DNA of 64,000 bases from the NCBI RefSeq assembly GCF_026210795.1, contig NC_089455.1, positions 2,852,001-2,916,000 on the forward strand, read 5' to 3'. Below, piece by piece: positions 28,269-60,461 of this stretch (the first letter of the stretch is position 1; each line of letters opens with the position of its first letter). The stretch comes from Rhizophagus irregularis. Taxonomy: Eukaryota > Glomeromycota > Glomeromycetes > Glomerales > Glomeraceae. Position numbers and translations under genes: made by a program. A model generated the notes under the pieces. The model saw only the letters and a list, made by a program, of their open reading frames with translations. It was not told the origin of the DNA and searched no databases.

Positions 28269-28374
28269 TTTGACCTGACCTGAACTGAAACCTGAAAATT
28301 TTCAGGATTTATATTAAAATATCAAAAAAAAATGGTGCAAAACATTTTTTTTGAAATATTGCGATTCAGTTTTT

Positions 28375-28945
28375 TATATTAAAATCGCATAAAAAGGTGA
28401 ATCACAATACCACAACTAACTTTTTAAATATAAAATCAATATAAAAAAATGAATTCCGATACCGAAATTCACTTTTTATATATAAAAATGATATAAAAAA
28501 GTGAATTCCGATACCGAAATTCACTTTTTATATATAAAAATGATATAAAAAAGTGAATTCCGATACCGAAATTCACTTTTTATATATAAAAATGATATAA
28601 AAAAGTGAATTCCGATACCGAAATTCACTTTTTATATATAAAAATGATATAAAAAAGTGAATTCCGATACCGAAATTCACTTTTTATATATAAAAATGAT
28701 ATAAAAAAGTGAATTCCGATACCGAAATTCACTTTTTATATATAAAAATGATATAAAAAAGTGAATTCCGATACCGAAATTCACTTTTTATATATAAAAT
28801 CGATATAAAAAAGTGAATTCCGATACCGCAATTCACTTTTTATATATAAAATCGATATAAAAAAGTGAATCCTAATATCGCAATTCACTTTTATTATATA
28901 AAATCAATATAAAAAGTGAATTATAATACCATAACTCACTTATTA
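28375..28945. repeat. 52-bp palindromic satellite array (about 11 units)
   Basis: The unit is AAAAAGTGAATTCCGATACC followed by GAAATTCACTTTTTATATAT and a short AT spacer. The period is exactly 52 bp between 28501 and about 28780 (several units identical), with more diverged units at both edges. Each unit is an inverted repeat: AAAAAGTGAATT pairs with AATTCACTTTTT. Near-identity of the central units points to recent amplification or gene conversion. Confidence 0.85.
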
Positions 28946-28947
28946 TA

Positions 28948-32326: not shown

Positions 32327-33256
32327 ATGGCTTTCTCGTCGATCCCAAACATTTCCAAAGTCTTTTCTGCAGGTGATGACCTTAACACAGCTATAGATAG
32401 AGCTCTTTACTTTGAACCAGTTAGCCACACCTTGAGAAAATATAGCGCCTTCGGTTTAACTGAAGATGATATTGCTTGAACTGTTGAAAAATCTTCAGGT
32501 GATGGAGAATACCTTACAAACTTATTAATGGAACATCATAAAGCGCTCTCAACCTTCGATATCGGTGACATACAATCTTTATATCACTTATTCTTTCTTT
32601 TTTATGAATCTTTTGATTTTATCTAAACCAGCGTTAGTAAAGGGATGGAAAGCGCTTGCAAAGAGTTTGTGCAATAACAGATGATATCACCAAAATAAAT
32701 GCCAGACGCGTTCGAATCTGTAGAGGATCAATTAATAGAAATAGAAATTTTAGAAGCGCCAAAAATGCTCAAATACCAATTAAAAGTTGCAGCACAATAA
32801 GAGGAATCAATAAGCGGTCTCTCAATAAAAGCCACTCCTTTTACGTCTAAAGGTAAACAAAAGCGAGTTTCATATGCTAATATGGTTAAACAGGACCTGA
32901 AAGATGATGTCAGCAGACTGAACTCGCCTTCACCTTCTATGGAAAAAAAGAGAAAAATTGCGTCTGTTTTAAAAGCTAATAATAACTGAACTAAAGTCCT
33001 TCTAAGATTACCAAGAAACAACCCGCTGCTACTTCACCTAAAACAATTAGTACCGTTATGACTGAATATGTGCCTGCAAACAAGGACCTTATTCGGAAAA
33101 TTACAGTTTATGATATCCCCTCCACCTAGTCTCAACTTGATATGCTTAATCATCTTAAAGCCTGGAGTCAAGTAGTTGCGATTAAATTTAAATCTCAACA
33201 GAAATACATTACAGTTACTGTTTCGATTGAACTCAATCAAGAGGCATCAAGACTAT

Positions 33257-36200
33257 CACTGGTCGAATGAAGGGCTACCGGGTAAATTTCATATACCCGA
33301 TAGCCCTATTATATGTTTTCGATTTTAACCTGAATGGCAGCTGATCGATCCACCCGATTTGTGACCGGTTCTCGGCGCAGATCAGGTATAAGTCATGTGA
33401 CTTTCAGGTTAGAACATAACGGTAAAGTGCTATATGAATATCGGGAGAATTTCAGCAATCCGATATTTCTCCGAACTATTTATAATATTAGATGTATATT
33501 TGCTACATCGAAACCCGAAACTTATTATTTATTCATTTATATATACTATATATTATTCATTTATTTATTTATTTAACATAATAACATATATATATATTTA
33601 TTTTATTATTATATTTTTAAAAATTATATTCGTTAATTTATCCTATTCTATCTATCTACATTATGTTGTTAATGGTTTGGAATATTATTCCAGTTGGTTC
33701 GATTCCAACAAACAACTATTTTTCCCAAAGTTTTTATGCCAACTCTTCCGAACTATTGCCTACTAATACCAAACGAATTAAGCAGAAGATGGATATTAGA
33801 TTGTGGTGGATTAGGTTGATTTTGACTTGGTAAAATTGTGAGTGAAATATTATTTCGTTCTCTATAAAAAAAAAGAACGTTTAGTAAACGTTCTTAACGA
33901 AAAATATTAAAAAAAATAAGTTCTGGTACCTTGTGTCAATTTCATCTTGAGCGAATTACCTACAAGAAAACGAAAAAAGTAACGTTAAAAATGTTACAAA
34001 AAAAAATAGAAAAACCCTTCTATTTACCTTTCGTCCAAAGTCCAGTTCGTAATCTTGTCTGGCGTTCCTACTAAAAAAGAAAGAAACGTTAGTACGTTTC
34101 TTTAAAACAATTAAACACCATACACCGCATTATCCCATATACCTAAGTCCAGGTTCTCCCAAATTCCTAGGAGTCCGGTAATCTAAAAAAACAAAAAAAG
34201 AAACGTTAATACGTTTCTTTAACATAATTAAACACCAACGCTATACACTTCCCCATATACTTTACCGGGTTCTTCCAAATTCCTAGGAGTCCGGTAACCT
34301 AAAAAAATGAAAAAAGAAACGTTAATACGTTTCTTTAATACAATTAACGCCATACACTCCTCCCATATATTTTACCGGATTCTTCCAAGTCCGGTAACCT
34401 AAGAAAATGAAAAAGAAACGTTAGTACGTTTCTTTAACACAATCAAACGTCATACGCCACCCATATATTATACCGAGACTTCCAAGTTCCTAGGAGTCCG
34501 GTAACCTAAAAAAATTGAAAAAAGAACGTTGATACGTTTCTTTAACAGCCCCCATATATCTAAATCCGATTTATTGAAAAAAAATATTTAGTTTCGACAA
34601 AAAAACTTACCGAATTTAAATACCGAGCTCAACAAATCCTACAAAAAAAAGAAAAAGAAACGTTAAAACGTTTCTTAATAAAAAAATAAAGTTTCGTAAC
34701 GATTTTCATTACGAAACTTACCATTTCGACCTTAGAGTACCGGAGCGGCGGAGCCTACAGATTCTACAAAAAAAAAATAATAAGAACGTTAGAAACGTTC
34801 TTTGAAAAATAAAAAAATATTGAAAGTTTGAAACTTACCCTCTCTTAGGCCTTAGCATCCCAGTCCGGTATAAAAGTCGAAGGGAGCCTACAAAAATAAA
34901 TAAAGAAACATTAGTAACGTTTCTTTAAAAAAAAAATAAAAAAAAAGAATCGAAGTTTCAAAACGAAACTTCGAAACCTAACCGAAATCCAATATCCAGA
35001 GAGTATCTACAAAAAAAAGAAGAAACGTTAATATAACGTTTCTTACAAAAAAAAGAATAAAAAAAAAAAGATTGTTTCGCAACGTTTAAACTTACCGTTT
35101 CGAAACACTGAGCCGAACACTTGAACCTACAAAAAAAAGAGAGAAACGTTAATATAACGTTTCTCAAAGAAAAAAAATTTTTTTAAGTTTCGTAACGTAA
35201 CTAAATGTCGCGAAACTCACCGTCATTTCGAATTTCACAAGGCCGAAATACTTGAACCTACAAAAAAAAAAGAGAAACGTTAATATAACGTTTGCTTTAC
35301 AAAAAAAAATAAATAAAAATAAGTTTCGCGTTGTGAAACTTACCATTGAGTTGCCATTTCGAAGCTCCCCACTTGAACCTACAAAAAAAGAGAAACGTCA
35401 GAATAACGTTTCTCAAACTCTCAAAGAAAAAAAAATTGTAAGTTTCGCAACGCATTGCGAAACTTACCGTTCGTTTCGTTGAAAAATGAAAAAAGATATT
35501 TCGAAGTATACTTGAAGTATATCTTCGAAATGTCGAATTTAATTTCGTCCGTCTAAGGAGCCGCCCAAAAGAAACCGAACCTAAAAGAAAAAAAAATGAA
35601 ACGTTAATAAACGTTTCGTTGAAAAAAAACAAAAAAAAAAATATATTTCGAAGTATACTTCAAGTATACCTTCGAAATGTCGAGAAGGAGCCGCCCAAAG
35701 AAGTCGAACCTAAAAAAGCAAAAAAAACGAAGCGTTAATAAACGTTTCGTTGAAAAAAAAAACCCAAAAAAGAAAGACATTTTGAAGTATATATACCTTC
35801 AAAATGTCTTATTGATTTCCGTCCGTCCAAGAAGCCAAGAAGCCGCCCAAAGAAGCCGAACCTAAAAGAAAAAGAAACGAAACGTTAATAAACGTTTCGT
35901 TAGTCGAAAAAAACAAAAAAATAATTATTTCGAAGTATACTCGAAGTATACCTTCGAAATATCGAGTTCCGAATCTCCAAGGAGCTGCCCAGCCGAACCT
36001 AAAAAAGCAAAAAAAACGAAGCGTTAATAAACGTTTCGCTAGTCGAAAAAATAAAAAAATAAATTATTTCGAAGAAGTATACCTTCGAAATGTCGAATTC
36101 CGAACCTATACCTTCGGCGTTCTGGACCTAAAAAATAAAAAAGAATATTAGTGCTAACGTTCATTAAAACAAATAAAAAAAAATTTTTTGCTTACTCCGG

Positions 36201-36785
36201 AAGACTGGAACTAATTTAGATACCGGTATATGTCTTCGGCTTCCTTAAAGTCTCCAAGAGTCCGGCGTTTCCTTCAAAAGAAAAGAAGTCCGGAGACTAC
36301 TAAAGTGAAACTTTTTAATCCGTTTCTGCATGTTGCAGATTATATTCCGAACGTTGGACGAGCTTGCCAGAAGTTAGAAATTTGATTTCGAGTTAAATAT
36401 TTGGTTCTTCAAAAGGTGTGATAAAAATTTATTTATTTAAAGTATTGTAAGAAAAAAGTTAAAAAAAAATTAACTTTAAAGTGTAAAAAAAAAAAGTTTA
36501 TCAATTAAAAAAAAGATCGAAGATTTTTGTGGGAATAGAAATAATTACATGCCGTAAATTATTCCAATGACCTATCAGACTACTGATAGGTATAATAAAA
36601 TTTTCTGATATTTTAATGATATGTCTTTAAAAAATCAGATTTTTTTCATAAAATATTATTAAACATTTCGGATTACCGATACTTGTAAATGTTTAATATT
36701 GCCTATCATGCCATATCGGGTTTCTGATTATTTCCTGATATTTGACCAATACGTTATTACCCGATATTTCATCATTTGACCAGTG
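33257..36785. mobile_element. 3.53-kb non-autonomous CACTA-type element, copy 1
   Basis: It starts CACTGGTCGAATGAAGGG and ends ATCATTTGACCAGTG, and is flanked by the 3-bp duplication TAT (33254-33256, 36786-36788). CACTG ends with a 3-bp duplication are diagnostic of CACTA elements. The left subterminal zone has a hairpin GGGCTACCGGGTA / TACCCGATAGCCC. The interior (33860-36200) is an array of hairpin units. No transposase frame is present. The first 11 bases equal those of the large CACTA element at 38358, so that transposase family may have moved it. It is over 98% identical by eye to the copy at 44092. Confidence 0.85.
33860..36200 (-). repeat. Array of ~19 hairpin units with splice-like borders (copy 1)
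   Basis: Nineteen units spaced 100-200 bp apart (mean about 127) each contain a GAAACGTTA...AACGTTTC palindrome. On the minus strand each unit begins at a donor-like site (GTAAGTTTCG, GTATACTTCG or GTATATGGG, depending on the subgroup), passes through the palindrome and ends in a T-tract with TTTTTTTGTAG or TTTTTTAG. Between units are 23-65 nt exon-like segments such as GTTCGGCTTCTTTGGGCGGC and GTTACCGGACTCC. In many units the donor lies inside a second hairpin (AAGTTTCG...CGAAACTT). Segment lengths are not consistently multiples of three, so coding is doubtful. Confidence 0.7.
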
Positions 36786-37560
36786 TATGAAATGATGGAG
36801 CATGGACGGCTCCACTTAAAGGTCTACCTGTACGATAGTTTCTGGCTAATTGGGATCTCAAACAAAGAAAAAAACGAAAATGATTTCAAGCTGTGGTTAA
36901 AGGAATTCCTACTTCAGTGATCATAGTTAGATTATACCTGGATAATCCTGCTCACTCTATTTTTGCACCTTTAAGGTGTAAAGCATTTAAATTAATTCAA
37001 GATCAGGGCACCTGCAAGTTAATAACTTACTTCAAATCGTAGGCTGACTTGGATAAGGTTATTGGTAAGCCATTTAACTTGGACGAATTTACTGGTGATT
37101 GGATGAGGTACTTTACCCCTAACTTGAAGCAAAGAAGGAGAAATCTTCAGAAGATGAATCAAGAAGGTGACTCTAAAGTTCAAACAAATAACACTAACAC
37201 TCAGTCGAGTAAGAAGCAAAAGGTGACCAAGGAAATCAAGAATATAGATAAGGCCTTGAGCGGTATTGACAAGCTTACTATTTTAGCAGAAATAAGGTCG
37301 ATGCTTAAAAAACTGGAAGCATCATGATATAAGTTTGAAAGAATGGTCAGATAGTCTTAGTTTTAGAAGTGTAATAGTAGTAGGGTGGTTTCGTTACTTA
37401 CTGTTTTTTGTTTTCGTTTTATATGTGGAATTCTTTTTTTTTGTTTTATTTTTTCCTGCATTTTTCTTTAGTTCAAAGGTGCATTTGCACCAGGTTTATT
37501 AATGCATCCTCATTGCAATCCGGGGGTAGTTGACTTATTTTCTGTATCTTTTGTGATGTA

Positions 37561-37744
37561 CAGTTAAACCTTTATATAACGATATGTCGGGACTCATAAG
37601 AAAAAATTTAAAAAATATCGTTATATCAAATTATACCAATATTTATATGTCCTCACATATAGTGGGAATGTAAAATTTTATCGGTATATCAAGTTTTTAA
37701 TAATGTATCGGTATATCAAATATCGGTATATCGAGTTCTGACTG
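37561..37744. mobile_element. 184-bp pogo-like MITE
   Basis: CAGTTAAACCTTTATATAAC at the left is mirrored by TCGGTATATCGAGTTCTGACTG at the right (imperfect). TA flanks both sides (37559-37560, 37745-37746). CAGT...AACCT...ATAACG ends are typical of pogo/Tigger-derived MITEs. It lies in the 3' region of the LINE-like copy. Confidence 0.7.
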
Positions 37745-38734
37745 TAGTTACATCTATATTGTATAGACTCTTGTGTCATTTTTAATAAACTTGAAATATA
37801 AAAAAAAAAAAAAAATAATTATTTAAAAATTTTATAATTTAAATTATAAATTAATTTATTAATTTTACTATATTATATAAATTTAAATTATAAAATATTT
37901 AAATTTTTTCATATGAATAATTAGATGTTATTTCTTCAACAGATTTCCATAAAATACGGCAAAAACCAATTACTAATATAACAAATCCTTTTAATTTATT
38001 AGGATTTGATTTAGTTATTTTAATTCTTTTATCAAATATTCCTGAATAATAATCATTTGTATTTCCTTTTGAAATAATATTCATATATGATTTCAATTAT
38101 TTAATTCCATTATTTAATATTTCTTCTATAGTTATTTTTTTAGTTTCATTATATTCTTTTGACCAATATTCATATGATCTTTTTAATAGAATTTTTTCAT
38201 CTTCTTTTTCAATAATTTTATCTAAATTTTCTAAATCATTTGTATTAAACTTCTTTTTTTAATTTTTAATTAATCCAATTAATGGAATATATTTTAATTC
38301 TAAACTAATATTATTATTTCCTATTCCTTTTAAAATAAAAATATCTGAATATCCAAACACTGGTCGAAATAGGACAATTCGACCTAAATTTGACCAGGTC
38401 GAATATAGGTCGAATGACGATCTAACCTGTGTCAAATTAAGGTCGAATTTTCGGGCGCATTTAGGGTGCCAATCGTCTCAAATTCGGAAAGGATATTCGG
38501 CTAAAATTAGACCTATATTAGGACGTTATTACATATTTGTTCGACCCTAAAAAAAAACCATATTCGACTACTATATGTAACCCGAATATTATTGATAAAT
38601 AGAGTTTTCAAGGACGAATAATAAAGCATAGTATAAGCAAATAAAACCCGTTTATTTTATATTTTATATATATTGACGTATAGTAATTATATAAATCAAC
38701 CCATGTACATAATAATATATAAACCCCAATAAAC

Positions 38735-38910
38735 CAACCATATTAAGCCAAAAAAAGAAATATAAAATATACTAATAATACCATATAATAAAAAATAAAC
38801 CCAATAAACCAACCAAAAAAAAGAAATATAAAATATACTAATAATACCATATAATAAAAAATAAACCCAATAAACCAACCAAAAAAAAGAAATATAAAAT
38901 ATACTAATAA
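38735..38910. repeat. ~64-bp tandem repeat, about 2.7 copies
   Basis: Unit: CCAACCAAAAAAAAGAAATA then TAAAATATACTAATAATACC and ATATAATAAAAAATAAACCC. It overlaps the 3' end of the accessory gene: the last unit contains that gene's stop codon region. Confidence 0.75.
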
Positions 38911-41260
38911 TATTCGTCGGCTTCAAAGATTTCATAAATTTTCTCGTCTTCTTTTGCTTCTTTTGTGGCTTTTTCTTTGCCTTTTCGACTCCTTTCGGCT
39001 CTTTGTTGCTAATATGATATAAACAAAATTAATTAGCGATATTTGCGATGTAAAAATATTAAAAACAATTCAACTTACTGTCGTCGAACTTTCACCAATC
39101 TCATCCAAATCTTCGGGTCTAATCGAATTCATTTCCGCTGAATTTAACAAGAAATCCGAATATGGCTCCGTTAAATTCGGCTCCATTGGCTCACAATCTT
39201 CGTAAGATTGAATCAAATCATCAATCACATCATCAGCCACGTCATATTCGCTAACGTCGTTTGTTTCGTTGGTTTCATCAGTTTCGTACATTTTCGCTTT
39301 ATCGAGCGCCCATTCGGGCGCATTCTTGAAGGTTCACTAGACGTAAAATACATGTCATCATCATAAATTCTCTCTCTTTGCTTTTTTGCGTGTTGAATAT
39401 ATTCTGCTTCGGGGTCCAATACGTTTCGTAATAGGTGTTTTAACTATTTAAAACAAAGATAAACTTTATATATCGAATAAATATTAAAATAGGTTAATAG
39501 CAATAATCACTTTAATACCTTGTTCGAACGCCATTCCCGATCGTATACATGCAGGAACCGCTTGTTATTAGGCAATTTCTGTCTTGATTCGTCTTCGGAA
39601 TCCGATTGCTCAATCGAATGACAATCATTCTGTAGGAGCATTGGTAATAATTCATCTTTATCGAATTCCTGTATGTTGGCATTATTTCTTTCGTATAATT
39701 TTATTGCGGCCTTTACTCGTCTATTTTTTTTCTGTCGAATATATAAAGATTAATTTCAAATGACTAAAAAAAAAGAAGTGTATTAAAATAAAATACTCCT
39801 CACTTCGGACAATCGCGCATTTACGTGCATTCTTCGATCTACTTTGTCTAATTGGCCTGATTGTCATTTCCGTTGTCTATCTCTTTTATGCTTGTGCATC
39901 AATCGTAACCAGTCTGACAATTGGGTTACCGACGGATTATAATGTCCACTCATCAACTTCTTTAATTCAGGTATCAATTTTTCGTATATCTTTGCTGTCT
40001 GTTCACTGAAAGTCTTACCATAATCCAACCGATATTCTTCGGGTATTTGACCTTTCAAGAGGTTCTTCATTTCAGCCTAAACAATAAGAGGAAATAATAA
40101 AATAATAAAAGCTGTATATATACATTAACACAATTCGGCTGCAAATAGTCTTGTAAAATTCTTACTCTTGCATCTGTAGCGGCAACTTCATCAGGAGATT
40201 CCTCTCTCGATTTTAATCTTTTATTGGGACGTTTTGGTGAATATTGCTGCGGAGGATTAATAATCTTTCGAGGTATGTGAAGTTGTTTGGATTGTTGAAG
40301 TTCTTCTCGGAGAGCTTTATTTTCTTCACATAATTCATTCGATTCGTTACTAAAAATTTCATTAAAATCCCGTAACATGGAGTTCTCCTCCTCGATCCTA
40401 CGAACATGGTCTTCTAAATTATCTATTTTTCGTTTCATTCTGGCTACTTTGGACTTTTCTTGTTTTAATTCGTTCTGTAGTCGAAGGGTTTCTTTTTTTA
40501 AATTTCCTAACTCAAAATTACCTATTTTAAATTATAAGGATATGTAACAAACAGATGTAATATAATAAATATCAAAATATAAAAATAACAAATTCGATTT
40601 ACCCGCTTCTTCATTACTTGGTCGATCACTTCTTGGTGCTCCTTCTTCGTGATGTGAACGATAACTTTTTGGTACATTAATATTAGGATATTTTTTAATA
40701 ATATCCGAAGCCGTTAAATTTCGTTGAGATTGAGATTGAGTTCGACCTATTGAGGCTGAAATATCTGGCAGAATAACGAGTTTAAAGGGAGATGAAGAAA
40801 CTGTAGTATTAGTATTTTGTGGTGTTAGTGTTGACGAAGTGGTAATATTACGTGTTGATAGTGTTGACGAAGTGGTAATATTACGTGTTGAAGAAGCAAT
40901 ATTTCGTGATGCTGATGCTGACGATCGTGATGCCGGTGTTGAAGTGGCAATATTTGGAGGTGTTGGTGTTGACGAAGTGGCAATATTTGGAGCTGTTGCT
41001 GTTGAAGAAGCAATATTTTGTGGTGTTAGTGTTGACGAAGTGGTAATATTTCGTGATGCTGATGTTGACGATCGTGATGCCGGTGTTGAAGAAGCAATAT
41101 TTCGTGATGCTGATGCTGACGATCGTGATGCCAGTGTTGAAGTGGCAATATTTGGAGGTGTTGGTGTTGACGAAGTGGCAATATTTTGTGGTGCTGGTGT
41201 TGACGACTCAGCAATATTTGGTGGAGGAGTATTTGGTTTCGATGGTTTCTTACGAGTCAT
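38904..41260 (-). CDS. CACTA accessory protein (TnpA-like, coiled-coil), six exons
   Basis: Exon 1 (40603-41260) starts MTRKKPSKPNTPPPNIAESS and has Ser/Thr/Pro-rich tandem repeats of the kind STPTPPNIATS / RSSASASRNI, then DIIKKYPNINVPKSY. Exon 2 (40124-40521) is a long coiled coil (LKKETLRLQNELKQEKSKVA ... EENKALREELQQSK). Exon 3 (39804-40076) reads MKNLLKGQIPEEYRLDYGKT. Exons 4-6 (39519-39731, 39077-39443, 38908ish-39008) are charged and end in a Lys/Glu-rich helix (ERSRKGKEKATKEAKEDEKI). All introns are short GT-AG and in phase. A TGA in exon 3 and a frame change near 39325 suggest the copy is damaged. By position (divergent from the transposase, inside the same TIRs) it is the likely DNA-binding partner protein. 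Confidence 0.65.
40830..41230. repeat. Coding tandem repeats in the accessory gene
   Basis: Plus-strand words GAAGTGGCAATATTTGGAGG, GAAGAAGCAATATTTCGTGA and GACGATCGTGATGCCGGTGT recur about ten times in mixed order. They encode the Ser/Thr/Ala/Pro-rich minus-strand repeats. The opposite-strand open frames here are shadows. Confidence 0.7.
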
Positions 41261-41821
41261 TATTGGTTTTTTTTTTCAAAAAAAAAAGAAAGAGATTTTT
41301 TGTACGGACGAGGAAATTGGTCCACCTTTTATATCTATTTTTTACTATCAAATTAGACTCTCAACAATCAACGATCAATTACACTTAAACATTTGTATCA
41401 AATTAGACTCTCAACAATCAACGATCAATTACACTTAAACTTTCGCATCAAATTAGACTTTCAATTAATTAAACAGATCAAATCAGACTTAAACTTTTTC
41501 ATCAATCAGACTTAAACTTTCGCATCAAATTAGACTTTCAATTAATGAAACTGTTAAATCAAATTAAATAGTATGGTGATACGTATGTTTTATTTTTAAA
41601 TTCCTATACTTATTCAATTTTCGTTCAATTTTTTCGTCTATTTCGTCCAATTTTCGTATGGTTTTTTTAATTATACCATCAATATCACTTTAAAAACGGA
41701 ATATAAAAAATCACAATATTACTAAAAATTCGACATCACTAAAAATTTGATATTAATAATTACAATTTTATTCAACGTAAAAACATATTACAACTTTATC
41801 ATATCTGACTTTTATCAAAAA
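41261..41821. promoter_or_regulatory. Divergent promoter region of the CACTA element
   Basis: Spacer between the two divergent CACTA genes. It contains two perfect 40-bp-scale copies of ATCAAATTAGACTCTCAACA...ATTACACTTAAAC (about 41348 and 41398, period 50) and two or three shorter partial copies (AAATTAGACTTTCAATTAAT) up to 41560. The repeats could be regulatory sites, but this is inferred only from position. Confidence 0.5.
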
Positions 41822-44091
41822 ATGAATAAAGGGAGAAGAAAACGCATTGCTGCTAATATCTTGGACGAATATAATAATTCGAGTTCTTCAACCTCTGAAC
41901 GAACTTATGCCGAATTTACGACCAGAAAACCAAGATCGAAGGTTCCGTGCTATTGCAGCAATTGTAATGGGAAAATGATTGATCCGCGCACAAAGGAGAC
42001 ACGAGCAAACGAATTCTTTAGAACCATTAAATTCCGATAAGGCTCCAACATCTCAAGAGTTAGTAGAACTGATTGATTCGACAATATCGTTAGAAGAACC
42101 ACAAGATACGACAATATCGTTAGTAGAACCACAAGATACGACAATACCGTTAGTAGAACCACAAAATACGACAATACCGTTAGTAGAACTACAAGATACG
42201 ACAATATCTATTGATACATATTCTGATAATGATACGTATGAGGAACAACAATATGTATTTCTTCCACGTAAAAAAAGGTCAAAAACAGGCACACTTCGTC
42301 ATATTACTGAAGTTGAGCAAGTCGCTGAATCAACTGAATATGACACGGATGATATCTACACTAGTGAATCTTCGGCACAAGAAGATTCTCCTAATAATGA
42401 TGATAACGAATTTTCAAGTAATTTTGAGAATTATTCTCATCCTATGTTCGACATACCAGATATTTCAGACACACCGAATATTTCAGAATTACCAACAGAT
42501 GAACTAATTAAGGGGATTTTGATATGGATTATGAAGTTCAGGTCGAGTCATAACATACCAAATACCGCAATTGAAGAATTAATACAATTTATTAAAATAA
42601 TATTGAAAGTGTGTAAAAATATCAATTCCGAATCATTTCCAAATTCATTATATATGTTAAGAAAAGCGTTAGGACTTATCGATCGATTTACGCAATTTGC
42701 AGCTTGCCAAAAATGCCACAAATTATACAAAAAAGAGGATATAATATCAAATGATGATAATACTATTATGAAATGCAGCCATGTCGAATTTCCAAATTCG
42801 GCCACAAAGAGATTAAAGCAATGTCAAACTCCTTTAGGAAAGAAAATTTCTTTAAATAATAGTATATCAATTGTTCCTGAATTAATTTATCCGGTCTCGA
42901 GTATACAACAGCAGCTTTCTAGTATGTTCAAGCGACCAGGATTTGAAGAATTATTGCGGCATTGAACTCGTCGTTCAGTAATTGATAATGTTTTATCAGA
43001 CATATATGACGGGCAAATTTGGCAAAATCTTAAGGAATCAAACGAACAAGAGTCAAATAACTTTTTCCGACCGGACAAGGCTGATACTCATCTAGGATTA
43101 ATGATAAATTTGGATTGGTTCCAGCCGTACGAAGGAACGATTTACAGTACAGGTGTAATATACGCAATAATATGTAATCTACCTCGGGATGTTCGATTTA
43201 AGCCTGAAAATATGCTTATACTCGGCATATTACCGGGGCCCAATGAGGTTAAATTACATAGAGTAAATCATTACCTTTCACCAATAATCACGGAATTAGA
43301 ATCACTTTGGGAAGGCGTGATTCTTAATCGCACTTATGAATGTCCAAATGGCAAAAATATTCGAGCTGCATTAATAATTGCTTCGTGCGATATTCCTGGA
43401 GCTCGAAAATTATGCGGGCACATCTCTGCCCTTGCATCATGCCATCGATGCGAAAAAAGGGCCAATAATCGCAATTTTGGTGGTATGGCGGATATGAGCG
43501 ACTGGTTTATCATGAAAGATCCAGTCGAGCATCGTCAAAAGGCTTTAGAATGGCGACGATGCAAATCTAACGCAGAAAGAGAGATTCGTCAAGGAGAATG
43601 GCGTAAGGTGGTCTGAAATATTAAGACTGCCGTATTTTGATCCGATTCGTTTTGTTGTTGTAGATCCGATGCATTGCCTTTTTCTAGGAATCGCTAAATG
43701 GATAACAAAACGAATATGGATTGATGAAGGTGTATTAACAGAAAAAGATCTTCAATCAATTCAAAAGAAAATGGACGAATTTAAAGTACCATCAGATTTG
43801 GGATGAATTCCTGGTAAAATCCATTGTGGTGAAGGGTTTTCTAACTTTACCGCTGACCAATGGCGCAACTTTTTCCTAATATATGCCACTGTTGCTTTAT
43901 GGAATCATCTTCCGGGTAAAGATCGCAAAATTCTTACGTATTTCGTAAGAGTTTGTACGATTTTGGTTAGACGAATTGTGGAGATTAACGATATGAAAGA
44001 AGCCCATGAACTTTTGATAAAGATAATTAAATTGATCGAAGAATGCTATGGCGAAGAAAAAATAACGCCAAACCTCCACCTCACTGGTCGA

Positions 44092-46215
44092 ATGAAGGGC
44101 TACCGGGTAAATTTCATATACCCGATAGCCCTATTATATGTTTTCGATTTTAACCTGAATGGCAGCTGATCGATCCACCCGATTTGTGACCGGTTCTCGG
44201 CGCAGATCAGGTATAAGTCATGTGACTTTCAGGTTAGAACATAACGGTAAAGTGCTATATGAATATCGGGAGAATTTCAGCAATCCGATATTTCTCCGAA
44301 CTATTTATAATATTAGATGTATATTTGCTACATCGAAACCCGAAACTTATTATTTATTCATTTATATATACTATATATTATTCATTTATTTATTTATTTA
44401 ACATAATAACATATATATATATTTATTTTATTATTATATTTTTAAAAATTATATTCGTTAATTTATCCTATTCTATCTATCTACATTATGTTGTTAATGG
44501 TTTGGAATATTATTCCAGTTGGTTCGATTCCAACAAACAACTATTTTTCCCAAAGTTTTTATGCCAACTCTTCCGAACTATTGCCTACTAATACCAAACG
44601 AATTAAGCAGAAGATGGATATTAGATTGTGGTGGATTAGGTTGATTTTGACTTGGTAAAATTGTGAGTGAAATATTATTTCGTTCTCTATAAAAAAAAAG
44701 AACGTTTAGTAAACGTTCTTAACGAAAAATATTAAAAAAAATAAGTTCTGGTACCTTGTGTCAATTTCATCTTGAGCGAATTACCTACAAGAAAACGAAA
44801 AAAAGTAACGTTAAAAATGTTACAAAAAAAAATAGAAAAACCCTTCTATTTACCTTTCGTCCAAAGTCCAGTTCGTAATCTTGTCTGGCGTTCCTACTAA
44901 AAAGAAAGAAACGTTAGTACGTTTCTTTAAAACAATTAAACACCATACACCGCATTATCCCATATACCTAAGTCCAGGTTCTCCCAAATTCCTAGGAGTC
45001 CGGTAATCTAAAAAAACAAAAAAAGAAACGTTAATACGTTTCTTTAACATAATTAAACACCAACGCTATACACTTCCCCATATACTTTACCGGGTTCTTC
45101 CAAATTCCTAGGAGTCCGGTAACCTAAAAAAATGAAAAAAAGAAACGTTAATACGTTTCTTTAATACAATTAACGCCATACACTCCTCCCATATATTTTA
45201 CCGGATTCTTCCAAGTCCGGTAACCTAAGAAAATGAAAAAGAAACGTTAGTACGTTTCTTTAACACAATCAAACGTCATACGCCACCCATATATTATACC
45301 GAGACTTCCAAGTTCCTAGGAGTCCGGTAACCTAAAAAAATTGAAAAAAGAACGTTGATACGTTTCTTTAACAGCCCCCATATATCTAAATCCGATTTAT
45401 TGAAAAAAAATATTTAGTTTCGACAAAAAAACTTACCGAATTTAAATACCGAGCTCAACAAATCCTACAAAAAAAAAAGAAAAAGAAACGTTAAAACGTT
45501 TCTTAATAAAAAAAATAAAGTTTCGTAACGATTTTCATTACGAAACTTACCATTTCGACCTTAGAGTACCGGAGCGGCGGAGCCTACAGATTCTACAAAA
45601 AAAAAATAATAAGAACGTTAGAAACGTTCTTTGAAAAATAAAAAAAATATTGAAAGTTTGAAACTTACCCTCTCTTAGGCCTTAGCATCCCAGTCCGGTA
45701 TAAAAGTCGAAGGGAGCCTACAAAAATAAATAAAGAAACATTAGTAACGTTTCTTTAAAAAAAAAATAAAAAAAAAGAATCGAAGTTTCAAAACGAAACT
45801 TCGAAACCTAACCGAAATCCAATATCCAGAGAGTATCTACAAAAAAAGAAGAAACGTTAATATAACGTTTCTTACAAAAAAAAGAATAAAAAAAAAGATT
45901 GTTTCGCAACGTTTAAACTTACCGTTTCGAAACACTGAGCCGAACACTTGAACCTACAAAAAAAGAGAGAAACGTTAATATAACGTTTCTCAAAGAAAAA
46001 AATTTTTTTAAGTTTCGTAACGTAACTAAATGTCGCGAAACTCACCGTCATTTCGAATTTCACAAGGCCGAAATACTTGAACCTACAAAAAAAAAGAGAG
46101 AAACGTTAATATAACGTTTCTTACAAAAAAAAATAAATAAAAATAAGTTTCGCGTTGTGAAACTTACCATTCGAGGTTTGCCATTTCGAAGCTCCCCACT
46201 TGAACCTACAAAAAA

Positions 46216-46269
<54 letters not shown>

Positions 46270-47661
46270 AACGTCAGAATAACGTTTCTCAAACTCTCAA
46301 AGAAAAAAAATTGTAAGTTTCGCAACGCATTGCGAAACTTACCGTTCGTTTCGTTGAAAAATGAAAAAAGATATTTCGAAGTATACTTGAAGTATATCTT
46401 CGAAATGTCGAATTTAATTTCGTCCGTCTAAGGAGCCGCCCAAAAGAAACCGAACCTAAAAGAAAAAAAAATGAAACGTTAATAAACGTTTCGTTGAAAA
46501 AAAACAAAAAAAAAATATATTTCGAAGTATACTTCAAGTATACCTTCGAAATGTCGAAAGTAAGGAGCCGCCCAAAGAAGTCGAACCTAAAAAAGCAAAA
46601 AAAACGAAGCGTTAATAAACGTTTCGTTGAAAAAAAAAACCCAAAAAAGAAAGACATTTTGAAGTATATATACCTTCAAAATGTCTTATTGATTTCCGTC
46701 CGTCCAAGAAGCCAAGAAGCCGCCCAAAGAAGCCGAACCTAAAAAGAAAAAGAAACGAAACGTTAATAAACGTTTCGTTAGTCGAAAAAAACAAAAAAAT
46801 AATTATTTCGAAGTATCTCGAAGTATACCTTCGAAATATCGAGTTCCGTCTCCAAGGAGCTGCCCAGCCGAACCTAAAAAAGCAAAAAAAACGAAGCGTT
46901 AATAAACGTTTCGCTAGTCGAAAAAATAAAAAAATAAATTATTTCGAAGAAGTATACCTTCGAAATGTCGAATTCCGAACCTATACCTTCGGCGTTCTGG
47001 ACCTAAAAAATAAAAAAGAATATTAGTGCTAACGTTCATTAAAACAAATAAAAAAAAATTTTTTGCTTACTCCGGAAGACTGGAACTAATTTAGATACCG
47101 GTATATGTCTTCGGCTTCCTTAAAGTCTCCAAGAGTCCGGCGTTTCCTTCAAAAGAAAAGAAGTCCGGAGACTACTAAAGTGAAACTTTTTAATCCGTTT
47201 CTGCATGTTGCAGATTATATTCCGAACGTTGGACGAGCTTGCCAGAAGTTAGAAATTTGATTTCGAGTTAAATATTTGGTTCTTCAAAAGGTGTGATAAA
47301 AATTTATTTATTTAAAGTATTGTAAGAAAAAAGTTAAAAAAAAATTAACTTTAAAGTGTAAAAAAAAAAAAGTTTATCGATTAAAAAAAAGATCGAAGAT
47401 TTTTGTGGGAATAGAAATAATTACATGCCGTAAATTATTCCAATGACCTATCAGACTACTGATAGGTATAATAAAATTTTCTGATATTTTAATGATATGT
47501 CTTTAAAAAATCAGATTTTTTTCATAAAATATTATTAAACATTTCGGATTACCGATACTTGTAAATGTTTAATATTGCCTATCATGCCATATCGGGTTTC
47601 TGATTATTTCCTGATATTTGACCAATACGTTATTACCCGATATTTCATCATTTGACCAGTG
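44092..47661. mobile_element. 3.57-kb non-autonomous CACTA-type element, copy 2
   Basis: Same ends as the copy at 33257 (CACTGGTCGAATGAAGGG ... CATTTGACCAGTG) and same orientation, flanked by its own 3-bp duplication CCT (44089-44091, 47662-47664). It differs from copy 1 mainly in homopolymer lengths and a few small indels. The largest difference is an expanded run of about 47 A around 46219-46267. Removing it with one CCT restores the transposase reading HLSLHLCECSYDYG of the host element. Confidence 0.88.
44695..47035 (-). repeat. Array of ~19 hairpin units with splice-like borders (copy 2)
   Basis: Same array as 33860-36200. Copy 2 has slightly different segment lengths at a few units (for example an exon-like segment of 45 nt where copy 1 has 47, and 43 where copy 1 has 40), so the two copies are independently drifting by small indels. 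Splice-like borders and AACGTT palindromes are conserved. Confidence 0.7.
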
Positions 47662-50160
47662 CCTATCATTACATCTATGCGAGTGCTCTTACGATTACGG
47701 ACCTCTGTATTCGTTCTGGTGCTTTAGCTTTGAACGAATAAATGGCTTATTAGGTAATTCAAATTTAATTGTGTCGATTTTTCGAATTATATTATTTCAT
47801 TTAGCAAAGATTAATAATAAATTATTTATTAGGATCTTTGCCTAATAGCCACCGCCAAATCGAACCTGAACTAATGCGTCGATTGATGACCGAAGCGCAA
47901 ATAAATGATATTATTAATAGTTCAAGTTCAGAAGTAATAGGACTCGAATTACTCGATAAACGACCTTCTGTCAGTTCTCTTTCCGAATTTCCAACAGATG
48001 AAATGTATCGATTTTTGATGAATTCCAGAAATATATCGGAGTCACCAATTACTGGTTGCGAGGAATTTCCAGGTAAATTTTTAGCACCGCAATCCAAAGA
48101 TATTCATCTTGAGGAACAAATCTACGATTTACTTATCGAATATTACGAGGATACATATGTAGATTCTATATTCAGAAAACCGTTCACAGAAAATTTACCC
48201 AATTCAACGATCATTATCAACAGAGCGAATCGATATGGAAGATGTCAAATCTGTGCAGAAACTTTTGGATCTGCTGCTGCAACCCGACATATTAAGAGCT
48301 CATTCGTCTTAGCTAAATTTATTAATCGTGATGGGAATAGCGTTGATACTTACCCAGGTCAAATCCAATTTTTTTTCGAACATAGCGTTCATTTATCTTC
48401 CCGTAATTTGACACACAAATTGGCTTACATCAAATGGTACAAACCGGCAAATTTGACATCTCGATTCCATTTCAGTATTGACGATGATGTCGAAACTTGC
48501 AACGTCGAATTATGGGAAGATAATTTCTACCCAAGCAGTAGAGACAATATAATCCCGATACACAACATTTTAGGTCGGTTTATACCTGTAAAATACAAAA
48601 AATCGGATCGATGTAATGCCAGGGAATATTTAGCCGTTATTCCTATAAATAGAAAGTTCCATTTGCGTTGATTTAATATAACATTCGAACTGGTATTTAC
48701 ACCAATTCGAATTTCAAAACATTTTTTAACAAATTATTTTTTTATTATATTTAGTATTATTAATATAGTATAACCACTATTTTATCTAGAAAAGTGAATA
48801 AAAAAAGCATGCAATTCGGCCATTATTTTTTATATTTTTTGTAAAAAAAAAGTTATAGTTCGACCATTATTCTGTTAGGTTGAATATAGTTTAATTTTAT
48901 TATACGCATTTCGACCATCATTCTGCAGGATCGAATCAGAGTCGAATATAGATTGAATTGTATATCATTACTAATTTAGGTCGATTTTTTTTAAAATTGG
49001 CCGAATTTAGGCTGAATTTTTTAGAGGTCGAATATTCCTATTTCGACTAGTGAAATCAACCAAATCCTTTTAATTTTGTACCATCCATTACTAATGATAA
49101 TTCAGGAATACAATATTTTAATGGTAAAAGATTTTCAACAATTGCTTGAAGAACAGGTTCATTTGCAGAAAATAATGATATTTGTGATCTTATTAATAAA
49201 AATGTTTTTAAAAGTTCAATAAAAGGTAAAATATTATTTGCAACAAGATTTTTATATGCTGAAGTAATAAAAAGAACATCATTTACAACTTGTCTATATA
49301 CTAACTTATCTTTATTTTATTCTAAAATTCAAATTTGTTTTGTTACAAGTTCTAAATAATAATTATAAATAGTTAATAAATAATATAAAAATAATAAAAA
49401 TAATAAAAATATTATAATTTACCAGATGAAGAATCAGTATAATTATTTCGTGTTCTTTTTAAATTTTCTTTTTGTTTAACTTGAAAATCAATTTTTTCAG
49501 TCCAAATCTTATTAAAGGTTGATTCCAATTCTTCTCCTGAAATATGCATTTCACTTTTTATATCATTATATATATAACAATTACGAAATATAAGACAAAT
49601 ATCTTTTTCAAATTCTTCAATACTTGCATATTGATTATTTTCTAATTTTGAAATTATTGTAAATAAATCCATTGAATTTTTTAGTCTCATTTAAAATTTC
49701 ATAAAATGGATGAATATTAGATTTAATATCAAGTTCTTGAAGAATATCATAACAAAAGTTAATAAGTTGAAAATTTTTAAAATTATTTTCAGCAGTAGAA
49801 ATAAAATGATTATTAGGAATTTCAATATTTTTTTTTGAATGAGATGAATTAGAAATAGATTGATTTTTAATAGAAATAAAGTAATTATTATCAGAATTTT
49901 CAACAAATACTATATTTTTTTTTTCATTATATTTTTCAATATTCTTTTTTGAATTAGAAATGGATTGGTTTTTAATAGGAATAAAATGATTATTATCAGA
50001 ATTTTCAATAATTTTTTGTGAATAAGAAGAATCAGCAAGCACTATATTTTCTTTTTCATTATTTTCTTCAGTAAATACATAATTTTCTTTATATTCTTTA
50101 ATAATTTCTTGCCAAAATGTTTTTAATATTTTTGTATACCGAAATCGTTCTGCAATTACC

Positions 50161-57915: not shown

Positions 57916-59478
57916 CTATTGATAATCTTCTTTTTTTATACCCTTCTCCTTTGTAAATGTTATTTTAAATAAACTGATAGCATCTACTTTTTCAATTTTC
58001 ACTTTTTTTGTTGGATCGATTCTATTATATCAATTAAAATTAGAATAACTATAGTATATAATTAAATAAAATAATTACAACTACTTACTACCTTGATGGT
58101 AATGGAATCTTAGTTTCAAATCTGCCGGTTGGAATTAACTTTTTAATATAATGATTACCTTCCACTATATTGATGTTCTTATATTCGCCACTGATGATAA
58201 CAACTTTATCATCATCATCTACATAAAGACTTATTTCATCTTTATTATTGATGGTTGGTATATTGATATATAAAGAAAATATCGTTCTATATTAAATTAA
58301 AAATTAACTAAACATCAGATAAATATTATATTTAGTAAAATTTCATGTTAAACAAACAAACATAATTACCCGTCATCATATAAATTATATAAATTATGAG
58401 AAGGACCATAGTTTGAATCTACGGTCTTCTATATAAAAATAAACATAAACATTAGTAATAATAATAAATTAATTGCTTACATTTTTTTTAAAAAAAATAA
58501 ATTAAAATTACATGTTCAGCTTGCTTTTTTCTTACTAAGGGAAAAAAATGGATTGTTAATTCCTCCTCACTTTCTTGACCAATTTTAAATTTTTTTCCAT
58601 CTACTTCTTCAAAGAAATTAATTTTAGTTTCCTCGTCAACGAAATGAATAAATCCATAACTAAAAGTTAAATCTTCATTTAATTTCATTTAATATTAAAA
58701 TTAAAAAATATAATTAATAAGTATATACATACTTCTCCTTTCTTTTTTTGAAAATATGCGCAAAATTTTGTGGAATGGTTTCATTTTTTTTGATCCAATT
58801 TTCAATAGTTAATGACGTCATACCGGCAAGATTATCACCACCAATAAATAATGAGCAATTATCTGGGTGGCATGGTTCTATTTTATCAAAAAAAAAATAA
58901 CACCTTCATCAAAGAAGGTAAAAAAAACAACACCTTCATCAAAAGAAGGTAAAAAAAATAACACCTTCATCAAAAGAAGGTAAAAAAATAACACCTTCAT
59001 CAAAAGAAGGTAAAAAATAACACCTTCATCAAAAGAAGGTAAAAAATAACACCTTCATCAAAAGAAGGTAAAAAAATAACACCTTCATCAAAAGAAGGTA
59101 AAAAATAACACCTTCATCAAAAGAAGGTAAAAAAATAACACCTTCATCAAAAGAAGGTAAAAAATAACACCTTCATCAAAAGAAGGTAAAAAATAACACC
59201 TTCATCAAAAGAAGGTAAAAAAATAACACCTTCATCAAAAGAAGGTAAAAAATAACACCTTCATCAAAAGAAGGTAAAAAAAATAACACCTTCATCAAAA
59301 GAAGGTAAAAAAATAACACCTTCATCAAAAAGAAGGTAAAAAATAACACCTTCATCAAAAGAAGGTAAAAAAAATAACACCTTCATCAAAAGAAGGTAAA
59401 AAATAACACCTTCATCAAAAGAAGGTAAACACCTCAAAAAATACCTTTATCAAAAGTAAACCCACCTCCAAATTCCAT
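57916..59478 (-). CDS. RRM-like plus Hsp20/alpha-crystallin-like protein, 228 aa, six exons
   Basis: Exons 59445-59478, 58733-58877, 58512-58659, 58370-58428, 58092-58286 and 57916-58021 join in phase through GT-AG introns (687 nt with stop). The protein starts MEFGGGFTFDKEPCHPDNCS. Residues about 20-107 look like an RRM: SLFIGGDNLAGM (RNP2-like), a helix, NYGFIHFVDEE (RNP1-like) and a final strand. Residues about 130-225 look like a small heat-shock domain: DEISLYVDDDDKVVIISGEY, GNHYIKKLIPTGRFETKIPL and a KKVKIEKVDAISLFKITFTK strand, which matches the alpha-crystallin pattern of an IsGe strand followed by GxFxxxixLP. The fusion is unusual. RNP aromatic positions are partly kept. Intron 1 is filled by a minisatellite. 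Confidence 0.65.
58890..59432. repeat. Minisatellite in intron 1 (~19 copies of a 27-30 bp unit)
   Basis: Unit ACCTTCATCAAAAGAAGGTA plus AAAAAATAAC, differing mainly in the length of the A run. Each unit contains an ACCTTC/GAAGGT hairpin with a 7-nt loop. On the minus strand the unit reads CTTTTGATGAAGGTGTTATT, close to the exon-1 end and donor CTTTTGATAAAGGTATTTTT at 59435-59455. The array probably grew by duplication of that exon-intron junction. Confidence 0.85.
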
Positions 59479-60461
59479 TTTATTAAAGAAATTAAAGAAA
59501 AATACTGTTTATTTATTTCAAAAACTAGAAACAGCGAAAACAAGTGGGAAGATTTTTTTTTGTCAGTTATGACGCGCTATTTAAGGTACAGTATATTACG
59601 TCATTATTTATATGATTATAACCACTTACACGTGACAACAAATAATTGTAATAAAACTGCTATTGGTTTTGTATCGACTGATTCGACTCATGTGCCAAAA
59701 GAGAACTATTTTATAATTTTATAAAGAATTTTCATCTATAGATTGATGAAAAATCTAGATATCTATTTGTGACTCGTCGACATTTATTTAAATTAGTTCA
59801 ACACATTTTTGGAAATTGAATATATGGGCTTTAATTGATGTTTAGTATATATTTTCTTAAAATGTATTTTTCATTTTATCCGATTGATGTAAAAATTTAA
59901 TATTTTCATATAATGTACTAAATAAATAAAATAAATAGATTTGTCATCTGATTGTCAACTATTTCTAAATTTGTTATAACAATATAAATATTTCGTTGTT
60001 CTAGTAACAATATTGAAGATATCAATATGAGACGATATCAACGATATATCATCATGTAATCAATTATACGAATTTGTTATATTAATATAATATCGATTAT
60101 CTATTTTTGCAAATCCTTACATAATGATCACAATGATCAGATCATAATATCTACTGTCTTCATGTGTTCTTAACTCTATTATATGCGATTATTCGTGACG
60201 AATAAATACCCCTGAATGTAACAAAATTGTAATTGTGTCCACTTAAATTTAGGTATTGAAATACGTGAAAATTCTAAAATACAAAATTTTAAATCTAGTA
60301 AGAAAAACCAAATTTAATTTTTGTAGAAAATCTAAGGTAGCGCAATTTATCACAAAATAAAATTTTTTCCTATGTTTTTCAATTTCTCAAAAATATTTTC
60401 TGTGTTTATTTACTAATTAATTTCATAAGATTCAATCAAATAACACTTCCTTATAGTGGTG
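59479..60461. other. Intergenic region
   Basis: Upstream region of the RRM/Hsp20-like gene; it includes a copy (59770-59835) of the motif seen upstream of the transposase-like gene. Otherwise AT-rich with no gene. Confidence 0.45.

Follow-up and report, generated by a model that had tools for sequence, protein, structure and literature searches.

Chains of hairpin-bearing intron modules inside CACTA-type elements of Rhizophagus irregularis

Introduction

One locus of Rhizophagus irregularis raises the question of what splicing may mean to a transposable element. In a stretch of 64,000 nucleotides of contig NC_089455.1 (positions 2,852,001 to 2,916,000 of the forward strand; hereafter the window), a transposon-like element is packed with intron-like modules, each built around a small palindrome. 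What is such a chain of introns doing inside a mobile element? The original prediction named three candidates: a micro-exon gene carried by the transposon, an introner-like amplification, and subterminal binding repeats that mimic splice sites.

Two young copies of one element

The window holds two copies of the element, A and B (Table 1), in direct orientation and 10.8 kb apart. Both start with CACTGGTC and finish with GACCAGTG, and these CACTG termini, together with 3-bp target duplications of ATA (A) and AGG (B), bear out the predicted CACTA-type assignment. A and B differ by 8 substitutions, plus differences mostly in homopolymer length, and are two young copies of one CACTA-type element. 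The second copy had been predicted to span 44092-47661; its right end at 47661 is correct, but the other end lies at 44082. Alignment to A places the array of B at about 44687-47070. No ORF overlapping A exceeds 111 aa, and A is therefore classed as non-autonomous.

Two local features deserve separate mention. At 46210-46271, intron 6 of B contains a stretch of some 62 A residues (T when read on the minus strand) that is not in A, an expanded polypyrimidine tract. Elsewhere in the window, at 28364-28947, a 52-bp unit is repeated in tandem (11.3 copies, 91% matches), by eye with an inverted repeat within the unit.

Table 1. Positions in the window of elements A and B, their target site duplications, and the hand-placed introns of A
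Feature	Position	Strand	Remarks
Element A	33257..36785	-	non-autonomous CACTA-type, 3529 bp; terminal repeats CACTGGTC... / ...GACCAGTG
Target site duplication ATA	36786..36788	-	5' side of A
Target site duplication ATA	33254..33256	-	3' side of A
Element B	44082..47661	-	second copy, 3580 bp; module order as in A, from alignment to A
Target site duplication AGG	47662..47664	-	5' side of B
Target site duplication AGG	44079..44081	-	3' side of B
A intron 1	36128..36195	-	GTAAGC...TTTAG; weakest; branch hairpin imperfect, not in predicted fold; z +0.59
A intron 2	35999..36082	-	GTATAC type; donor inside exon-intron hairpin
A intron 3	35862..35951	-	GTATAC type
A intron 4	35710..35796	-	GTATAT type; exon-intron donor hairpin of 14 bp; z -6.76
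A intron 5	35581..35669	-	GTATAC type
113-nt exon	35468..35580	-	contains a 20th, broken module; donor AT, not GT
A intron 6	35379..35467	-	GTAAGTTTCG donor hairpin; palindrome with CTGAC branch site
A intron 7	35258..35343	-	
A intron 8	35127..35220	-	
A intron 9	35007..35095	-	
A intron 10	34888..34982	-	donor GTTAGG
A intron 11	34764..34838	-	
A intron 12	34639..34721	-	
A intron 13	34506..34610	-	
A intron 14	34399..34473	-	without donor hairpin; branch palindrome with TACTAAC
A intron 15	34299..34375	-	without donor hairpin; minimum-energy fold without branch hairpin
A intron 16	34183..34265	-	without donor hairpin
A intron 17	34068..34142	-	without donor hairpin; annotated model takes an AG 3 nt upstream
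A intron 18	33960..34027	-	
A intron 19	33862..33929	-	

An array of exon-intron modules

Between 36195 and 33862 on the minus strand of A, 19 complete GT...AG introns of 68-105 nt were placed by hand from donor, branch site and acceptor, matching the predicted "about 19" modules, with a 20th that is broken. Each module begins with a donor, followed by a palindrome around a CTAAC-, CTAAT-, CTGAC- or TTAAC-like site, a T-tract and AG; the palindrome is imperfect in a few. Donors are GTAAGTTTC, GTATAC or other GTA-type hexamers, with GTTAGG and GTGAGT occurring once each. Internal exons measure 23-113 nt: the minimum of 23 nt stands as predicted, while the supposed maximum of 65 nt is exceeded by the exon that holds the broken module. 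Tandem repeat analysis of A identifies units with periods of 99-139 bp and 75-84% matches (for example, period 116 and 4.3 copies at 34076-34547). Exon-intron units have therefore been duplicated in tandem, so whole modules were amplified, as had been proposed.

A scanner that requires a donor, a palindromic branch site, a T-tract and AG called 14 introns in A (8 strong) and so overlooked several of the hand-placed 19. The opposite strand gave 0 calls, and 100 dinucleotide-shuffled versions of the array part gave 0.02 calls on average. Across the other 110.8 kb of window strand it returned 4 weak and 0 strong calls, with 58800-59500 left out because its palindromic tandem array had misled an earlier scanner into false intron-array calls. 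That array, at 58891-59429, consists of a 29-bp unit in 18.1 tandem copies with the palindrome ACCTTC/GAAGGT.

Folding of the introns gives a more varied picture. RNAfold minimum-energy structures, judged by reading, contain the branch-site hairpin in 17 of the 19 introns of A (all except 1 and 15). Fold z-scores lie below -3 in nine introns and between +0.59 and -1.92 in the remaining 10, among which are all seven of modules 13-19, none reaching z -2. Many donors were predicted to lie within a second hairpin, and part of the modules have one, but this hairpin is optional: it is absent from modules 14-17 and, by eye, from the arrays in L046, L056 and L060. Of the two structures, the palindrome at the branch site is more consistently present.

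Constraint on the splice signals

Divergence was counted over 22 locus pairs in both directions, using the best alignment only and covering 145 introns, with a score of at least 6 and TAG required of the reference copy; the resulting counts are correlated comparisons, not independent events. Among 265 comparisons the branch A showed 0 substitutions and the branch T 2; the donor GT was substituted in 7 of 510, donor position +6 in 0 of 256, and T-tracts in 2.7% of 3025. Substitutions reached 9.7% of 6121 in exons, 7.2% of 8013 in intron spacers and 8.1% of 577 in the hairpin loop outside the branch site. Introns are thus better conserved than exons, as originally predicted, and their signals lie far lower still. 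The outer positions of the branch 5-mer changed in 9.1% and 7.9%, matching the expectation for yTnAy. AG is the weakest intron signal, substituted in 4.1% of 534 and so above GT; some of these changes, not all of which were traced, convert TAGG to TAAG, keeping AG and moving it by one base. Gaps affected GT in 2.4% and AG in 2.1%.

Column counts within the family of A point the same way. Over nine copies, variable columns numbered 0 of 57 at YAG and 2 of 114 in donor hexamers, compared with 55 of 754 in exons, 80 of 1409 in the rest of the introns and 61 of 1127 in flanks (L034, with a bad alignment and 267 substitutions versus A, was dropped from this count). The splice signals are therefore the best-kept part of the array. 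Border bases that vary as freely as other bases would have spoken against introns; instead, donors and the branch A fall far below exons and spacers, with AG less clear-cut. GT donor, yTnAy branch site, T-tract and AG follow one another in order and under constraint, as in U2-type introns, and the conservation pattern, as far as sequence comparison can tell, is that of selected spliceosomal introns.

Introns better conserved than exons are also what RNA host genes display, and nine of the 19 introns of A have strong predicted folds (z < -3). Such features would suit a model in which the excised introns, as hairpin lariats, are themselves the product, either small-RNA precursors or a means of titrating splicing factors. 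This is improbable, given that spacers change almost as fast as exons and that a search of 33000-48000 at Rfam gathering thresholds matched zero families.

Palindromes with compensating changes

Paired changes indicate that the palindromes are kept as palindromes. At non-CpG pairs the branch palindrome has an odds ratio of 20 for a paired change, compared with 2.0 in a control in which the partner was slid by 2 bases; for the donor hairpin the corresponding values are 80 and 3.5. CpG pairs covary too, with odds ratios of 5.5 and 3.9, the slid control for donor CpG pairs being uninformative at 3 changed partners. Most distinct double changes (23 of 27 and 30 of 35) restored Watson-Crick pairing. 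When introns were detected without reference to hairpins, a perfect stem of at least 6 was present at the branch site in 152 of 271 distinct chained introns (56%), compared with 4% when flanks were shuffled. Among isolated detections, 16 of 38 also had a stem of at least 6. The roughly 2 in 5 detected introns that lack such a stem represent false calls, imperfect stems or real absence. Because of the paired changes and the excess of stems over controls, the comparative evidence indicates that the branch palindrome is real and maintained, as RNA or as DNA. What is new in this architecture is the position of the branch site, at the apex of a palindrome in which a change in one arm tends to be matched in the other.

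Which of the two molecules is selected is a separate matter. Single-sided changes left G-U and A-C equally often (67 distinct events each; 34 and 31 at non-CpG pairs), while a selected RNA helix should favour G-U, so an RNA hairpin and a DNA palindrome both remain as readings. The proposal that donor hairpins couple splicing to RNA folding is accordingly only partly tenable, the hairpins being optional and G-U not favoured over A-C. The same lack of G-U preference, together with palindromes that are perfect in several families despite differing in sequence between them, would fit DNA-level features, such as sites for a dimeric protein or quasi-palindromes perfected by template switching, with splicing incidental or secondary. 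We consider this quite unlikely: it leaves unexplained the invariant branch T and A, the conserved donors, and the occurrence of T-tract and AG on one particular strand in 19 of the 20 loci sampled, and in one of the families described below (family 2) the subterminal repeats sit elsewhere.

Subterminal transposase-binding repeats are short motifs near both ends of an element and in both orientations. The arrays are internal and run in one direction, and the repeats that family 2 does have close to its ends are separate from them, so the binding repeats of the original prediction are not supported.

In a crude control of ordinary host introns (heuristic calls in four genes, with some poor scores, several unresolved gaps and no intron found in L064), 13 chaperonin-gene introns included no G/C-containing branch stem of at least 6 and two A/T-only stems; these introns also look weaker, with GTAAGT in 1 of 13.

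Copies and families across the genome

A search of the genome (146.7 Mb, 32 contigs) shows that A is one of many such arrays. Its first 300 bases have 23 matches, 17 of them with at least 94% identity across the whole query. A donor-hairpin pattern matched 26 times at 17 loci, against 0 for its control, and all 17 loci contain chains of at least three called introns. Donors of called introns account for 22 of the 26 matches and the other 4 lie 21-111 nt from one; every match has three or more called introns no farther than 400 nt away. The shorter branch-palindrome pattern matched at 339 places and its reversed version at 0. Among the 100 of these that were listed, 63 have one mismatch, none touching T-A-A. 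For 20 loci hand-picked from those 100, a T-tract and YAG downstream and a donor upstream were found on the predicted strand in 19 and on the other strand in 0; at L043, the one exception, GTAAG stands in place of the acceptor. The scanner gives at least two modules in 14 of these 20 loci and a single call in 6, which by eye are short module chains or repeat-like sequence.

The architecture of A is found again in four or more further array types of the R. irregularis genome, while L019 is similar to A (75-83%). Family 2 has the termini CACAGGTC (a variant start), forms an element of 4.2 kb in L013, carries its separate repeats near the element ends and outside the array, and is flanked by the duplications ATC (L013) and CTT (L018). 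Family 3 occupies L009, L021, L022, L024 and L025, with TTT (L021), TGT (L024) and AAC (L025). Nested in a family-2 element at L010:2924-5848 is a CACTG element with a CCA duplication and its own hairpin-intron array, which runs opposite to the array of its host element; L015 shows the empty site. L023 represents a further array type. Target duplications of 3 bp also matched at L020, L037 and L040. No matching one was found at L036, L038 or the family-2 locus L016, and the check could not take in L034, L035, L039 and L041. At L044, a hairpin-intron module lies upstream of frames that by eye resemble part of a homologue of the splicing factor SF3B4.

A possible source of transposase is found at L068, an element read from one end, whose first 18 terminal bases are those of A. 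It encodes a Transposase_21 domain (E 4e-18), which we take to be the Tnp2 type expected of CACTA, and has no hairpin introns in the 4 kb read. The search for an autonomous partner also scored 123 matches for Plavaka and 23 for KDZ. Plavaka elements are reported to be prevalent in R. irregularis strains (PMC11075540). One Plavaka copy (L066, 5 kb) is without the matching termini that the Tnp2 element L068 possesses. A DUF7869 domain (E 5.6e-13) was found at L067:2533-2823, in an element that is 86% similar to A over its first 37 bases; the 3.6 kb read of it contain no hairpin introns.

Highly similar introns in hundreds of copies, within terminal-repeat elements, recall introners, that is, mobile introns that copy themselves into genes and for which the arrays would be a breeding ground. 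The genomic distribution makes this highly improbable. All 26 donor-hairpin matches fall within or beside arrays, 20 further loci (a sample rather than a full census) contain no recognised host coding exon pair flanking a hairpin intron, and the 13 chaperonin introns lack such a hairpin, save for the two A/T-only stems. Moreover, the unit that multiplies is exon plus intron. With no dispersed introners in the loci sampled, the predicted introner-like amplification was not upheld.

Coding potential of the exons

The remaining candidate is a protein gene. Database searches with two spliced-exon queries retrieved 20 R. irregularis proteins, labelled hypothetical, unnamed or uncharacterized. P0001 fits A exactly through 9 introns, and P0008 fits L018 exactly, with no mismatch, again through 9 introns; in each case 8 donors and 8 acceptors are as predicted. 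P0013 fits L012 exactly only with irregular introns (8 introns, with 5 donors and 7 acceptors as predicted), which mean little because the mapping accepts any GT-AG pair, and P0002-P0005 have no exact fit to A. These gene models skip exons and read one exon unit in different frames; they may be ab initio predictions. RNA-seq-guided annotation that includes Nanopore data is described for a 146,773,001-bp R. irregularis assembly (PMC10234402).

The exons themselves ignore reading frame. Exon indels are multiples of 3 in 22 of 147 cases, as rare as among intron indels (91 of 504), and 139 distinct exons of 18-70 nt divide 48/52/39 by length modulo 3. Stop codons are depleted in exons with z -5.94 in sense and -7.95 in antisense. 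Compared with an order- and phase-permuted null, spliced ORFs are longer in 3 of 20 chains (p < 0.05; L009, L022 and L024, 46-61 aa). Against a mononucleotide shuffle they are longer in 5 of 20 (p < 0.05), including A with a maximum of 130 aa, an excess that reflects composition because antisense stop depletion is equally strong. Conserved coding was rejected after tests by three-frame concatenation, shuffled and permuted nulls, indels modulo 3 and stop depletion with an antisense control.

As a side observation, three consecutive 42-nt exons of a second array, at L015:9320-9805, are in frame (VQRLIGRMEFNISK-like), similar to the first modules of A, and a repeat peptide is plausible there.

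A captured, effector-like micro-exon protein gene, with copies that diversify and are alternatively spliced, would draw on these in-frame exons, on the 20 database proteins, on the 130-aa ORF and the five chains that beat the shuffle, and on the higher rate of change in exons than in spacers, for which positive selection is another possible cause. A conserved micro-exon protein is nevertheless unlikely, because exon lengths and indels disregard frame; few chains exceed the permuted null, stop depletion is as strong in antisense, and the frame of one exon unit differs across database models. The micro-exon gene of the original prediction was set aside on these grounds. SP7-like effectors were also considered; the portion of PMC11333574 consulted does not contain "transpos".

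A proposed spliced cargo without a reading frame

Taken together, the data make it probable that non-autonomous CACTA elements of R. irregularis carry a multi-intron, frame-free transcription unit that has grown by tandem duplication of exon-intron modules. This unit would consist of numerous short exons together with U2-type spliceosomal introns about 65-125 nt long. It would be transcribed, its introns would be removed by the host spliceosome, and selection would preserve its capacity to be spliced, as an RNA that is noncoding or indifferent to frame. The gain for the element can be guessed at: well-spliced transcripts might be exported and spared RNA surveillance or silencing. The palindrome, for its part, may present UACUAAC in an exposed loop for pairing with U2.

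A stronger version is offered tentatively. These may be DNA transposons that carry nothing but structured introns, chained without regard to frame, in which repeated splicing itself is selected, the branch site sits in a hairpin loop fitting the branch-site-interacting loop of U2, and splicing rather than protein sustains the element.

If true, this would be a mobile element selected for being spliced while coding nothing stable, and would offer material on why parasites keep introns. Hundreds of similar introns with strong signals also provide a resource for branch-site mapping and for studying the effect of branch hairpins on splicing within one organism. In addition, some "hypothetical proteins" of R. 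irregularis may be gene-prediction products of transposon arrays.

Comparison with known systems

No report of such arrays appeared among the listed results of searches in open-licence literature, but several systems share part of their features. Micro-exon genes, such as the MEGs of Schistosoma and the bicycle genes of insects, have many very short exons and largely keep frame. The exons here are similarly short, whereas their frame is not kept. Like CACTA/Tnp2 elements, the array elements have CACTG termini and 3-bp duplications, and they share 18 terminal bases with the Transposase_21 element L068; unlike them, they have no transposase ORF, and L068 has no hairpin introns in the sequence read.

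Introners resemble the arrays in forming near-identical intron families within one genome, some with signatures of DNA transposons (PMC9860276). They are, however, single introns inserted in genes (PMC9860276), while the repeating unit of the arrays is an entire exon-intron module within a transposon; the word "Rhizophagus" is absent from the main text of that paper. The internally symmetrical stwintrons of Hypoxylaceae are likewise fungal introns with inverted repeats that have proliferated in a genome (PMC8469720). Their terminal inverted repeats measure 45-55 nt and they have no short flanking duplications (PMC8469720), whereas the palindromes described here are short, centre on the branch site and lie inside CACTA elements.

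Tgm-Express1 of soybean is a CACTA element containing five unrelated host gene fragments (PMC1947982). Both it and the elements described here are CACTA elements with internal exons and introns; those of Tgm-Express1 are spliced into many transcripts (PMC1947982), and splicing is proposed for the arrays in R. irregularis. In contrast to Tgm-Express1, the cargo of the R. irregularis elements is a tandem series of modules that resemble one another and have palindromic branch sites, and no host gene was recognised in it.
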